Of a stretch of 64,000 nt of DNA, positions 2,286-6,281 are shown one piece after another (the first letter of the stretch is position 1; every line of letters starts with the position of its first letter). The stretch covers positions 1,674,001 through 1,738,000 of the forward strand of contig NZ_JAVDYG010000001.1 in assembly GCF_031458325.1 (NCBI RefSeq). Direction: 5' to 3'. A program made the translations under genes and the position numbers. This DNA is from Nocardioides marmoribigeumensis (GTDB lineage: Bacteria > Actinomycetota > Actinomycetes > Propionibacteriales > Nocardioidaceae). The notes under the pieces are model-generated. The model worked only from the letters and a program-made list of their open reading frames with translations, ran no database searches and was not told the origin of the DNA.

Positions 2286-3293
2286 GTGGCGACGTACACG
2301 ACCGCAACCCGCACCTCCCCCAGCACCCACCGCAGCGTGCCGTCCTTCGGCACCTTCCGCCGCGGCGGCGCGGGGGCGACGGCCACCGCGGGCACTGCGG
2401 GCGCTGCGGGCGCTGCGGGCACTGCGGGCACCGCGACCCTCGACGCCTCGGTGCTCGCCCAGGGCCGCCGCGACCAGCTGCGCGAGCTGCCCAGCAAGCC
2501 CGACCCGGTGATGTCGGCCCAGGAGGTCGACGTCTACTACGGCGACTTCCGCGCCCTGACCAAGGTCAGCCTGGACTTCGGCAAGAACGAGATCACCGCG
2601 CTCATCGGCCCCTCCGGCTGCGGCAAGTCGACGCTGCTGCGCTCCCTCAACCGGATGAACGACACCGTGCCCGGCGCGCGGGTCGAGGGGCTCATCACCT
2701 ACCACGGCCAGGACGTCTACGGCGCCGACGTCGACCCGATCGACGTACGCCGCCGCGTCGGCATGGTCTTCCAGCGGCCCAACCCGTTCCCCAAGTCGAT
2801 CTACGACAACATCGCCTTCGGCCCCACGTCGATCGGTACGAAGGTCCCCGGCGGCAAGTCCGGCATGGACGACCTGGTCGAGGAGTGCCTGACCAAGGCC
2901 GCGCTCTGGGACGAGGTCAAGGGCAAGCTCAAGCAGTCGGCGTACGGCCTCTCCGGCGGCCAGCAGCAGCGCCTGTGCATCGCGCGCACGCTGGCGGTCA
3001 AGCCCGACGTGATCCTGATGGACGAGCCCTGCTCGGCGCTCGACCCGATCGCCACCTCCCGCATCGAGGACTGCATGCTCGCGCTGCGGGAGGACTACAC
3101 GATCATCATCGTCACCCACAACATGCAGCAGGCCGCCCGCGTGGCCGACCGCACCGCGTTCTTCACCGCGCTCGCCGAGGAGGGCTCGGGCGACCGCACC
3201 GGCCTGCTCGTGGAGCACGACCTGACCACCAACATCTTCCGCTCGCCCCGCGACAAGCGCACCGAGGACTACATCTCGGGTCGCTTCGGCTGA
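2286..3293 (+). CDS. pstB: phosphate ABC transporter ATP-binding protein PstB
   Basis: ATPase of the high-affinity PstSCAB phosphate importer. Walker [10 protein letters not shown] is at residues 108-116, the LSGGQ signature begins at 222, and Walker B ends in D246-E247. The 335 residues exceed the usual 250-280 because of a 72-residue N-terminal extension that includes an Ala/Gly/Thr repeat coded by tandem 9-mers; the conserved core starts near residue 73. The GTG at 2286 lacks a strong ribosome binding site, so a start inside the extension (for example the ATG coding [10 protein letters not shown] near 2511) is possible. No pstS, pstC or pstA is next to it, which is unusual. Confidence 0.93.
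2390..2434 (+). repeat. 9-bp tandem repeats inside pstB
   Basis: Five consecutive units of the form gggc(a/g)c(t/c)gc at 2390, 2399, 2408, 2417 and 2426 encode the Ala-Gly-Thr rich stretch in the N-terminal extension of PstB. The period is a multiple of three, so copy-number change would keep the frame. Confidence 0.85.
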
Positions 3294-3323
3294 GCACCCT
3301 CCGGTGATCGAGGGCCCACCCCG

Positions 3324-3866
3324 ATGATCACCGGACTGCGCCTGCTCCTCGTCGACCCCCACGTCGAGCCGGGCACCGTGGAGGCGTTCGGTGCCGAGGG
3401 CTTCGTGCACCAGGCCGGTCGCGGCACCGACGCGCTGGTCGAGTACGGCTGCTTCTCCCCCGACGCCCTGCTCGTCGCCCCCCGCCTGCCGGACCTCGGG
3501 CTGGGGGACTTCGTGGCCGCCGTACGCCGGCGAGGGGACGAGCCGATCGTCCTCGGCGTCGGCGGCGAGCCCGACCTCGGACCCGTCGGCGCCGCGCTGC
3601 TGCAGGGCGCCACCGGCACGGTCGACCGGCCGTACGCCGCCAGCGACGTCGCGCTCAAGGTCTCCGCGTCGCTGCCGCGCACCACCGTCCGGCTCCCGCT
3701 CCTGCTCGGGCCCCTGCGGCTCGACCCGCTGGCCCACACCGTCCACCTCGACGGCGCCGAGGTCGCGGGGCTGGGGCTCAAGGAGTTCCGGCTGCTCGAG
3801 CTGCTCCTCCTCCGCTCCGACCGGGTCGTCTCCCACGTGGAGCTGCGCGACACCCTCGACGGCTGA
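3324..3866 (+). CDS. degenerate OmpR/PhoB-like regulator, pseudo-receiver plus truncated winged helix
   Basis: 180 residues. The N-terminal part has receiver-like spacing but the acidic pocket is lost (VDPHVEP at the start) and the phosphoacceptor position reads VAPRLPD instead of LLDxxLP. Residues from about 130 match the start of an OmpR-type winged helix (LKEFRLLELLL, then VVSHVELRDTL), but the protein stops before the DNA recognition helix and wing. It follows pstB by 30 nt and is probably co-transcribed. Either a truncated, possibly non-functional gene or a regulator that works by protein contact. An inverted-repeat element begins 64 nt after the stop. Confidence 0.7.
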   Translation: MITGLRLLLVDPHVEPGTVEAFGAEGFVHQAGRGTDALVEYGCFSPDALLVAPRLPDLGLGDFVAAVRRRGDEPIVLGVGGEPDLGPVGAALLQGATGTVDRPYAASDVALKVSASLPRTTVRLPLLLGPLRLDPLAHTVHLDGAEVAGLGLKEFRLLELLLLRSDRVVSHVELRDTLDG

Positions 3867-3930
3867 CCGCGCCGGCGCCGCCCGCCCCCCGCCGCGCGCC
3901 CGCCGCCGCCGGCGCCGCCCGCCCCCGCCG

Positions 3931-3993
3931 CGCGTACTCCGACGTACGCGCTGGACAAATCGGACATCGGCAGCTCGTACGTCGGAGTACGCG
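3931..3993. repeat. inverted-repeat element, copy 1
   Basis: Perfect 18-bp arms, cgcgtactccgacgtacg at 3931-3948 and its exact reverse complement at 3976-3993, enclose a 27-nt centre. The same element recurs in opposite orientation at 5060-5120, with arms identical over 17 bp and a centre that matches at 24 of 27 positions when reverse complemented. The two copies bracket the gene at 4058-5041. Could be a terminator-like hairpin, a dispersed REP-type element, or the ends of a mobilised unit. Confidence 0.9.
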
Positions 3994-4057
3994 GGGCCGG
4001 GCGGGGCGGCTGTGGAGAGCGCCAGCGCCGATCGAGCCGGCCGCGGCACCCTGCCGC

Positions 4058-5041
4058 ATGCCCTTCACCCCCCGCCTCGCGCTGCCGCCCGGCCTCGTCG
4101 TGCCGCGGCGCATCGACCCCGGCGGCGCGACCGGGCCGACCGCCGCCCAGGCACGGGGCCCGCACTGGCACCGGGTCGGCAAGAACTCCTACCGCCCGAC
4201 CCTCGCCGCGCAGCCCCCGGAGCAGCGCATCTTCGACGCGGTGGGCCAGCTCCCCTCGGGCGGCGCGGTCACGGGGTGGGCCGCGCTCCGCGTCCACGGG
4301 GCGGCGTACTTCGACGGCCGTCTCGCCACGGCCGCCGGGTGGGTCGACCGGCCCGTCCTCCTGGCGGCCGGCCGCAGCGAGGGTCGGCGCGCGGCGGCCG
4401 GGGTGCTGTTCAGCTACGAGCCGCTGCCTCCCGAGGAGGTCCAGGTCGTGCACGGCCTGCGCGTCACGACGCCGTCGCGGGCGCTGTTCGACGAGCTGCG
4501 GACGCTCAAGGTCCCGCGACGTGCGCTGGTCGCGACGGAGATGGCGGTGGCGGCCCGGGTGGTGACGCTCGACGAGATGCGGGTCTACGCACAGCTCCAC
4601 CGTCGCCGGCGGCGCAGCCTCGCCGCGATCGCCGTCCTCGACCGCGCTCGCCCGGGCGCCCGCTCACCCAAGGAGGTCGAGCTGCGCGACCTCCTCGAGC
4701 TCGGGACCGACCTGCCCCTGCTCGGCATCAACGTGCCGGTCTTCGACCTGCACGAGAACTTCCTGCTCGAGGCGGACCTGCTCGGCGTGGAGCGGGGGAT
4801 GGTCGTGGAGTACGACGGCGAGGACCACGGGTCGAGCGCCAGGCGGGCCCGCGACGCGGAGCGGGCCGACCTGTGCAGGCGCCACGGTCTCGAGCACGTG
4901 ACGATCGTCGGACCCGACCTGGCCCGTCCGGCGAGGATCGTCGACCGCGTCCAGCAGGCCTGGGAACGAGCCCGCCCCGTCACCGACCAGGTGCGCACGT
5001 GGACCACCGAGTGGCCGCCCGGCTGGGCGCCGTGGTGGTGA
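4058..5041 (+). CDS. AbiEi-like wHTH protein with putative VSR/DUF559-type nuclease fold domain
   Basis: 327 residues of a type common in Actinobacteria and often labelled as type IV toxin-antitoxin AbiEi family. The N-terminal half suits a winged-helix plus AbiEi-like domain (VTGWAALRVHGAAYF; LRVTTPSRALFDELR). The C-terminal region reads KEVE, then LLEADLLG, then VVEYDGEDH, followed by an R..D..R..L..HGLEHVTIVG stretch: the spacing of E, D and E-x-D residues of VSR/DUF559-like PD-(D/E)XK proteins. No cognate AbiEii nucleotidyltransferase toxin lies beside it. Nuclease activity is inference only. Confidence 0.65.
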   Translation: MPFTPRLALPPGLVVPRRIDPGGATGPTAAQARGPHWHRVGKNSYRPTLAAQPPEQRIFDAVGQLPSGGAVTGWAALRVHGAAYFDGRLATAAGWVDRPVLLAAGRSEGRRAAAGVLFSYEPLPPEEVQVVHGLRVTTPSRALFDELRTLKVPRRALVATEMAVAARVVTLDEMRVYAQLHRRRRRSLAAIAVLDRARPGARSPKEVELRDLLELGTDLPLLGINVPVFDLHENFLLEADLLGVERGMVVEYDGEDHGSSARRARDAERADLCRRHGLEHVTIVGPDLARPARIVDRVQQAWERARPVTDQVRTWTTEWPPGWAPWW

Positions 5042-5059
5042 GGCCCGCCTGCCGGGCCG

Positions 5060-5120
5060 GCGTACTCCGACGTACGTGCTGCCAATGTCCAATTTGTCCA
5101 GCGCGTACGTCGGAGTACGC
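5060..5120. repeat. inverted-repeat element, copy 2 (opposite orientation)
   Basis: Arms gcgtactccgacgtacg at 5060-5076 and the exact reverse complement at 5104-5120, with a 27-nt centre. Compared with copy 1 at 3931-3993 the element is inverted: reverse complementing this centre gives cgctggacaaat, then tggacattggcag, against cgctggacaaat, then cggacatcggcag. It lies between the convergent ends of the AbiEi-like gene and pit, where it could also act as a two-way terminator. Confidence 0.9.
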
Positions 5121-5122
5121 GG

Positions 5123-5158
5123 CGGCCGGGCGCGGCGCGGCGGCCGGGCGCGGCGCGG
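5123..5158. repeat. 18-bp GC tandem repeat
   Basis: Two exact copies of cggccgggcgcggcgcgg (5123-5140, 5141-5158) followed by a degenerate third. It lies between the inverted-repeat element and the 3' end of pit; no coding role is apparent. Confidence 0.8.
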
Positions 5159-5183
5159 CGGCCGGGCGGGGCGGGCGGCCGGG

Positions 5184-6281
5184 CTACGGGAGCTGGAGGA
5201 GGCGGAGGAGGAAGTAGCAGATCGCGGCCATGAGGCCCGCGGCCGGGAAGGTGAAGATCCAGGCGCCGACGATGTTCTTGGCCACGCCCCAGCGGACGGC
5301 GGAGACCCGCTTGGTCGCGCCGACACCCATCACCGCGGAGGTGATGATGTGGGTGGTCGAGATGGGCGCCTCGAACACGAACGCGGTCGTGTAGAGCACG
5401 CCCGCGGAGACCGACTCGGCGGCGAAGCCACGGGGCGGGTCGAGGTGGATGATGCGCCGGCCGAGGGTGCGCATGATGCGCCAGCCACCGGAGTAGGTGC
5501 CGAGCGAGATCGCGCTCGCCGCGGCGATGATCACCCAGACCGGGAGGCTGTCGTCGGCGGAGACGTGGCCGCCGGTGAGCAGCGCCAGGAAGATGACGCC
5601 CATCGTCTTCTGGGCGTCCTGGAGGCCGTGGCCCAGCGCCATCGCGGCGGCGGAGACGGTCTGGGCCAGGCGGAAGCCGCGGTTGGTGCGCGAGGGGTTG
5701 GCCTTGCGCCAGATCCACATGATCGCGATCATCACCAGCGCCGCGGCGAGGAAGCCGACGATCGGCGAGGCGATCATCGGGATGACGATCTTGTCGAGGA
5801 TGACCTGCCAGCGGACCACGCCGCACTGGGCGCCGTCGACGAGCTTGCCCCCGACGGTGCAGCCGGCGTCAGTCATCTCCGAGCCCGCCACCCCGGTGAA
5901 GAACTCGCCCGGGGTGGCCAGCGCGAAGGCCATGCCCGCGCCCATGAGCCCGCCGATGAGGGCGTGGGAGGAGGAGGAGGGGAGGCCGAAGTACCAGGTC
6001 AGCAGGTTCCACGCGATGGCGCCCAGCAGGCCGGCCATCACGACGGTCAGGCCGTGGGTGTTCTGCGGCAGGGTGATCACCTTGCCGACGGTGTTGGCGA
6101 CCTCCTGGCCGAGGAAGGCGCCGATGAAGTTCATCACCGCTGCCATCGCCAGGGCCGCCCGCGGGGTGAGCGCACGGGTCGAGACCGAGGTGGCGATCGC
6201 GTTGGCGGCGTCGTGGAAGCCGTTGGTGTAGTCGAACGCCAGCGCTACTGCGACGACCGCGATGATGATCGCGAGGTCCAC
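5184..6281 (-). CDS. pit: PiT-family inorganic phosphate transporter
   Basis: 365-residue integral membrane phosphate:cation symporter. The two halves each carry a PiT signature: DYTNGFHDAANAIATS near the N-terminus and GHGLQDAQKTMGVI in the second half. About ten hydrophobic helices alternate with short loops. The GTG start at 6281 is chosen because the first membrane helix (LAIIIAVVAVALAF) follows at once, and it leaves only 2 nt after the DUF47 gene stop. The pair is a known low-affinity phosphate uptake unit. Confidence 0.92.
   Translation of the reverse strand: MDLAIIIAVVAVALAFDYTNGFHDAANAIATSVSTRALTPRAALAMAAVMNFIGAFLGQEVANTVGKVITLPQNTHGLTVVMAGLLGAIAWNLLTWYFGLPSSSSHALIGGLMGAGMAFALATPGEFFTGVAGSEMTDAGCTVGGKLVDGAQCGVVRWQVILDKIVIPMIASPIVGFLAAALVMIAIMWIWRKANPSRTNRGFRLAQTVSAAAMALGHGLQDAQKTMGVIFLALLTGGHVSADDSLPVWVIIAAASAISLGTYSGGWRIMRTLGRRIIHLDPPRGFAAESVSAGVLYTTAFVFEAPISTTHIITSAVMGVGATKRVSAVRWGVAKNIVGAWIFTFPAAGLMAAICYFLLRLLQLP

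Follow-up and report, generated by a model that had tools for sequence, protein, structure and literature searches.

A hairpin-bounded nuclease-like gene in Nocardioides marmoribigeumensis as a candidate REPtron-like mobile element

A 1189-bp unit consisting of a hairpin, a nuclease-like gene and a second hairpin (positions 3932 to 5120, forward strand) is proposed to be a small mobile element with a REPtron-like way of life, in which a nuclease is accompanied by cognate hairpins that also spread on their own; we consider this reading somewhat better than even, with a probability of roughly 0.55. The ends of the element would be long palindromic hairpins, and its sole gene is predicted to join an AbiEi-like part to a C-terminal restriction-like nuclease of the DUF559/EDxHD type. 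The window, by which we mean the whole 64,000-nucleotide stretch that was analysed (G000:C1:1674001-1738000), belongs to a host genome of 4.44 Mb in a single contig with 73% G+C. The anatomy of the unit, the pairing of its hairpins, their fixed length, dispersal and species-specific sequence, the co-variation of arms and protein, and the presence of units at different sites were established by comparison.

The left hairpin element (3931 to 3993, forward strand) has perfect 18-bp arms around a 27-nt centre and belongs to a 19-copy family, and the right element (5060 to 5120, reverse strand) has perfect 17-bp arms around a 27-nt centre that is inverted relative to the left copy. Once one centre is inverted, 24 of the 27 positions are identical, which agrees with the original prediction of two such elements with perfect arms and 27-nt centres. 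As the arms are palindromic, the orientation of the copies was judged from the centres alone; the opposite orientation that had also been predicted holds in the window but not as a general rule, since the centres are in the same orientation in several relatives (e.g., loci L166 and L202). With up to two mismatches allowed, the arm 14-mer occurs four times in the window, every time inside the two elements, compared with a mean of 0.37 in the shuffled window, where 0 of 100 shuffles reached four. Both elements fold far more stably than their dinucleotide shuffles on either strand (z from -7.3 to -8.8). No T-run was found 3' of the window hairpins, the sequence after both being G+C-rich; of the features of an intrinsic terminator, the stem is present and the T-run absent, a structure with which T-less termination is compatible. 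An Rfam search of positions 3500 to 5500 returned five matches up to E = 10, all far under the gathering scores.

The gene between the two hairpins (4058 to 5041, forward strand) encodes an AbiEi-like protein of 327 residues whose C-terminus bears a nuclease signature of DUF559 type (E206, D240, H257 and D266). PADLOC AbiEi models cover residues 102 to 203 of this protein, with the best match at E = 8.5e-8 (residues 108 to 188), and the Pfam and NCBIfam models, DUF559 among them, gave no match above cut-off. Among 30 aligned members, one PADLOC AbiEi model was matched by 24; at E ≤ 0.01, DUF559 was matched by four and the restriction-endonuclease family MTES_1575 by three. N225, D240, H257 and D266 are invariant in 70 of 70 sequences, and E206 and E251 are conserved in 69. 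The AbiEi models and the DUF559-type residues confirm the AbiEi/DUF559-like gene that had been expected between the elements. We read E206-D240-H257-D266 as the putative active site of a restriction-like nuclease of the EDxHD type, the nuclease assignment resting on these residues and on weak profile matches; EDxHD enzymes are presumably connected with DUF559 and Vsr. A single-sequence AlphaFold model had a pLDDT of 37 and was unusable for the fold, and no relative was found in the PDB. The gene occurs once in the host genome, and relatives at E ≤ 1e-15 were found in 249 of the 341 genomes of the taxonomic family (host genome counted); thus, the system is common and accessible to experiment, and we regard the mobile-element group as common in this family. 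Searches of plasmids, phages and viral contigs found no relatives, and the window protein had no match in a genome-contig collection; these collections may omit the host genome or near kin. TGTGGA (4011 to 4016, forward strand) lies in the interval that separates the gene from its upstream hairpin; TGTGGA or TCCACA is present upstream of 63 of 70 unit genes, compared with 54 of 1047 random windows, and in this position we take it to resemble part of a DnaA box. In the clade with CGTCGTACCGGAC arms (L202, L206, L170 and L184), the nuclease reading frame appears to enter the downstream hairpin, with the stop codon inside it, so that the hairpin would encode the C-terminus of the protein.

The pairing of hairpins around the gene was assessed at 70 gene loci, the window included, of which 30 were the best matches of a family-wide search and 40 were chosen by hand from its lower ranks, mostly on longer contigs; all 70 are good matches and not a random draw. 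Under a strict test, requiring one hairpin-arm 10-mer to recur exactly on both sides of the gene and no more than 350 nt away, a pair was present at 15 of the 30 and 18 of the 40 loci, compared with 0 of 1220 and 0 of 1463 random windows. When the upstream flank of one locus was combined with the downstream flank of another under the same test, 20 of 870 and 21 of 1560 combinations matched, and all 20 cross-locus matches of the first set fell inside one arm-sharing clade. A tolerant test, with 12-nt arms and few mismatches, recovered a matching hairpin pair on both sides of the gene at 54 of the 70 loci and in none of 476 random windows; its cross-locus control matched in 33 of 600 sampled pairs, in many of which the two loci had the same arms or arms of the TAGTCC type. 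No pair was detected by this test at the remaining 16 loci (L165, L167, L168, L174, L176, L181, L182, L183, L185, L201, L208, L209, L210, L220, L221 and L235), among which L174 has just 58 nt of downstream sequence and L221 has hairpins that look degenerate by eye. The paired hairpins differ in sequence between genomes, and the TAGTCC-type arm is found in many relatives in the paired, not the unpaired, state. Single-linkage clustering at 22% mismatch grouped the 54 arms into 25 clusters, one of which is a chain of 28 loci, and hence the 54 paired cases are independent only in part.

In the host genome, a two-arm pattern with a permitted inner gap of 15 to 45 nt identified 18 elements, all with identical spacing, and a covariance model identified 19 full-length 61-bp elements; the model was built from 17 sequences, which match by construction. 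One of the elements starts at 2442925, with its matched arm from 2442927. Three others (1083806, 3107020 and 3133185) are identical over 61 bp, and their 40-nt flanks are only 28 to 62% alike, as would be expected if a discrete unit gets copied. According to a codon-usage gene finder built for this analysis, all 19 copies fall in intergenic space (11 convergent, 7 co-directional and 1 divergent) and at least one gene 3' end adjoins 18 of them; the setting is convergent at 11 of 19 elements, compared with 9 of the 67 neighbouring gene pairs of the window (Fisher p = 0.0002). The outcome that the original prediction had named as fatal to it, hundreds of ordinary terminators and a syntenic locus, did not appear: the copy number of 19 rules out such terminators as the whole story, and the pstB-pit junction, in which the unit lies, varies among congeners. 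Two pairs of elements are less than 1.3 kb apart, the window pair and 911303/912527, for which uniform placement gives a probability of 0.004. The second pair (G000:C1:911303-912587; L091 and L093) is 1.2 kb apart with inverted centres and encloses one gene of GDSL-lipase/SGNH type (Lipase_GDSL_2, E = 2.6e-19), so that bracketing in the host genome alone is not specific to the nuclease gene. Alongside some elements, the arm is present once or twice more (G000:C1:2683474-2683594, 3106990-3107080, 2347600-2347690 and 739336-739412), spaced by 30 bp at three places and more tightly at 739 kb, which looks like tandem duplication of an arm with its flank. The arm was not found in four congeners by either the 14-mer or the covariance model, one of the assemblies being 82% complete. 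Searches of the genome-contig collection with the two-arm hairpin and of viral contigs with the arm gave no match, and both may omit the host genome or near kin.

Solo hairpins were also observed in another genome, G214, with three per 400 kb, one of them with altered yet still paired arms; the reversed arm gave none, and the G214 arm was likewise missing from 700 kb of sequence from other genomes. In 100-kb samples of seven other genomes, no solo copy of their own hairpins was found, and such samples would be little informative at a copy number of about 20. Around 36 unit loci, six extra hairpins were present outside the stretch taken as the unit and none with reversed arms, and three of these six represent a single orthologous copy shared by three genomes. 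Dispersal is thus seen in two genomes, the host and G214, and local extra copies are seen in a few more.

The hairpin arms and the protein vary together. Arm type tracks clades on the protein tree, with CGTCGTACCGGAC in one clade and GTAGTCCCCATC in another, and across the 54 loci the distance between arms shows a weak but clear correlation with that between proteins (Spearman 0.24, 0 of 2000 permutations). The unit of the CGTCGTACCGGAC clade resides at two chromosomal sites with unlike flanks, namely site A (G214, G151 and G242) and site B (G319, G159, G327, G169, G191, G157 and G268). When L202 (site A) was aligned with L206, L282 and L238 (site B), the homology was bounded exactly by both outer hairpin ends; with L281 and L283, the end was exact on the right, and under very loose scoring the homology extended 718 and 159 nt leftward, respectively. 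Exact ends on both sides were therefore obtained in three of the five comparisons, L284 and L285 being outside these. At site B in G157 and G268, the arms are different and still matched within each locus, and a second unit, with arms of the G268 type, is present at this site in G214; the arm difference at this site may reflect either a concerted change of both hairpins or a swap for another unit. Between G240 (L221) and G217 (L228), the nuclease gene is inverted with the flanking gene order kept, and the hairpins at L221 are degenerate and different. No clean empty site was found among the loci compared, and no target-site duplication was evident in the flanks examined. Two candidates for a clean insertion or empty site were rejected: the solo hairpin at L228:14777 differs from L204 by about 430 bp with other sequence, and site A in G032 (L255) is free of the unit and contains another hairpin and another open frame.

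The junction occupied by the window unit has its own history. To the left lies pstB (2286 to 3293, forward strand), outside the unit, and to the right pit, encoding a PHO4-family phosphate transporter (5184 to 6281, reverse strand). Directly beside the unit, a response-regulator-like gene (3324 to 3866, forward strand) has a shortened 3' end compared with the congener G001: Pfam Trans_reg_C was matched only at profile positions 6 to 33 of 77, under the cut-off. In G001, the junction is occupied by a response-regulator gene whose open frame spans 238 residues, and it holds no unit; the window regulator aligns to residues 51 to 196 of this protein at 48% and then ends near the unit, and the G001 protein continues for 42 residues past the aligned part. 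The missing end was not matched in positions 3201 to 5400 at E ≤ 1. A truncated upstream gene had been suspected, and the partial Trans_reg_C match and the longer G001 counterpart support it; on these sequences, the simplest reading would be that the unit was gained with loss of the regulator 3' end. The convergent pstB and pit genes are separated by 70 bp in G003, 150 bp in G168, 404 bp in G354, 761 bp in G001, 1404 bp in G002 and 1890 bp in the window. In seven further genomes (G221, G283, G032, G140, G216, G290 and G163), the gap is 1312 to 2733 bp; all seven junctions contain a nuclease-type gene and six a matched hairpin pair. Since a well-supported branch of the protein tree (100/99) separates the window gene from those seven, this junction has probably received units more than once. 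Three further elements of the original prediction, namely a small hairpin-bounded unit, a dispersed element and presence or absence at the locus, were supported. At the G002 junction (L097), a gene that by eye is flavoprotein-like lies between inverted clusters of a different repeat, of the GCGAAGCGTCAGTTCT type, and is a second case at the pstB-pit junction of a gene flanked by opposed repeats.

Several other explanations were considered, and each of them accounts for a part of the observations, while none covers the locus-specific pairs, the movement and the solo copies together. It is conceivable, if unlikely, that the hairpins are bidirectional terminators or 3'-end stabilisers homogenised by gene conversion and that the nuclease-like gene is a bystander. 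The strong stems and the placement of the host copies (19 of 19 intergenic, 18 beside a gene 3' end, 11 convergent) would fit such a role; however, the window hairpins are without a T-run, matched pairs with one member 5' of the gene surround 54 of the 70 genes of nuclease type and none of the 476 random windows, and the entire unit is found at different sites in one clade. The hairpins might instead be operator-like sites at which the AbiEi-like protein controls its own expression and that of scattered genes, with no present movement. AbiEi proteins bind inverted repeats, and AbiEi and Rv2827c are reported to do so in their own promoters (PMC7319586); that the arms track protein relatedness would also be in keeping with operators. 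We nevertheless give little credence to this explanation, as it leaves aside the second copy downstream of the gene, the position of the host copies mostly at 3' ends with just 1 of 19 in a divergent setting, the identical 61-bp copies amid unrelated flanks, the units at different sites and the conserved nuclease-type residues.

Similarly improbable is that the hairpins are the ends of miniature elements moved by a different transposase and that the nuclease-like gene is cargo. A dispersed, fixed-length element with palindromic ends is what such elements would look like, but one gene type recurs within differing hairpin pairs, and PF01797 (Y1_Tnp), to which the transposase search was directed, is unmatched in the host genome (0 matches), while 5 of 14 control genomes were positive by the same search. 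Lastly, the gene could encode a homing endonuclease that stands on its own and goes back to favoured sites, the pstB-pit junction among them, with the hairpins as mere borders. In its conserved E, D, H and D residues, the protein is similar to the EDxHD homing-endonuclease family named in PMC3943268, and genes from different clades occupy one pstB-pit junction; yet solo hairpins at many non-homologous sites and units at sites A and B are left unexplained, and we consider homing very unlikely.

We therefore return to the mobile hairpin-ended unit and its relation to known systems. According to PMC2817692 and PMC3733652, a REPtron is a RAYT (TnpA-REP) gene flanked by two palindromes that are also dispersed extragenically, often at gene ends, and REP palindromes and RAYTs diversify together; the term is also used in PMC8266576. 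Likewise, the unit described here has one gene for a DNA-processing enzyme between two copies of an extragenically dispersed palindrome. In contrast to a REPtron, the enzyme is AbiEi-like and of DUF559 type, not a Y1 enzyme, and the host elements are 61 bp long, start with a paired GCGTAC and are few in number, unlike REPs of 20 to 40 bp with an unpaired GTAG head. As both a PF01797 match and a GTAG-tagged 20-40-bp REP are missing, the unit was not assigned to REP/RAYT, and a RAYT-driven REP was rejected on the unmatched PF01797. TIRtrons, which are described in PMC3733652 as having a tyrosine transposase, long partly self-complementary terminal repeats and, in some genomes, repeat families, share the long self-complementary terminal repeats and the dispersed copies and differ in the enzyme family. 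The AbiEi-type protein (PADLOC) recalls AbiE type IV toxin-antitoxin systems; however, no AbiEii toxin gene adjoins it, its neighbours being the response-regulator-like gene and the convergent pit, and unlike an AbiEi antitoxin it has an additional nuclease-type C-terminus. Vsr-like EDxHD homing endonucleases such as I-Bth0305I share the order of conserved E, D, H and D residues but not the hairpin ends and dispersed solo hairpins, and the gene here was not seen in an intron or intein. In contrast to integron attC cassettes, the host hairpin copies are dispersed and not in arrays. In the titles and abstract openings of the open-licence literature, a mobile association of DUF559/AbiEi with hairpins was not described among the matches listed.

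We infer that mobilisation is the work of the nuclease, which would recognise the hairpins and act on them as follows. The AbiEi/DUF559-type protein would bind its own cognate hairpin, the nuclease domain would nick or cut DNA there to produce an end or a copy, and this product would be joined elsewhere, placing the whole unit or a lone hairpin at a new site. Units and solo hairpins would survive where no gene is broken, mostly between gene ends because insertion there is least harmful, and the solo hairpins would persist as REP-like repeats. Movement in trans, as was originally suggested, is no longer the first guess, since the bracketed gene is itself nuclease-like and its relatives often have their own matched hairpins, and the two alternatives offered at that time, a mobile cassette or the double capture of a dispersed element, appear to be two faces of one system. 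We rate the system as new because the REPtron lifestyle is shared and the REPtron enzyme is not. A bolder proposal, which we make tentatively and regard as quite possible though short of even, is that the unit belongs to a new class of mobile DNA, in which a restriction-like DUF559/EDxHD-type nuclease with an AbiEi-like part, in place of a DDE, HUH, serine or tyrosine enzyme, moves the hairpin-ended unit that encodes it and scatters solo hairpins through the genome, and hairpins and enzyme co-diversify in each lineage. Dispersed palindromes are common in bacteria, and of the two REP super-families in a 2013 survey (PMC3733652), only the GTAG class was given a partner enzyme, CGTC REPs being said there to be without a dedicated transposase. 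If the proposal is true, the REPtron lifestyle arose more than once, with a second, unrelated type of enzyme, some orphan repeats have a candidate mover, and many AbiEi-type 'defence' genes are mobility enzymes of selfish palindromes; if the nuclease is a passenger, the unit reduces to a variant form of dispersed palindromes.

Hairpins of comparable form were also sought in other genomes. Five genomes besides the host, among the 58 searched with the covariance model, matched at E ≤ 0.01, and by eye only two of these contain similar 61-bp hairpins, G034 (two; L072 and L078) and G012 (one; L073), both in one other genus. These 61-bp hairpins have the inner CGTACG and a 27-nt centre as in the host, differ from it in outer arms and centre sequence, and directly follow stop codons; possibly, they constitute a parallel family. 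The centre motif ATGTCCGANWTGTCC was rejected as a wider signal, with 10 matches in the host genome and exactly one in each of 5 of 57 other genomes, and thus appears essentially species-specific. ACGTACG...CGTACGT pairs were likewise discarded as a family-wide form of the element: 216 of 341 genomes match this broad pattern, and most of the matches listed look like chance occurrences in coding sequence or a different 21-bp repeat. Another dispersed repeat, of the ACGTACGTCGGCCGAGACGTC type and often in tandem, was observed as 21-bp units in G143, G207, G223 and G330 (L145-L160).
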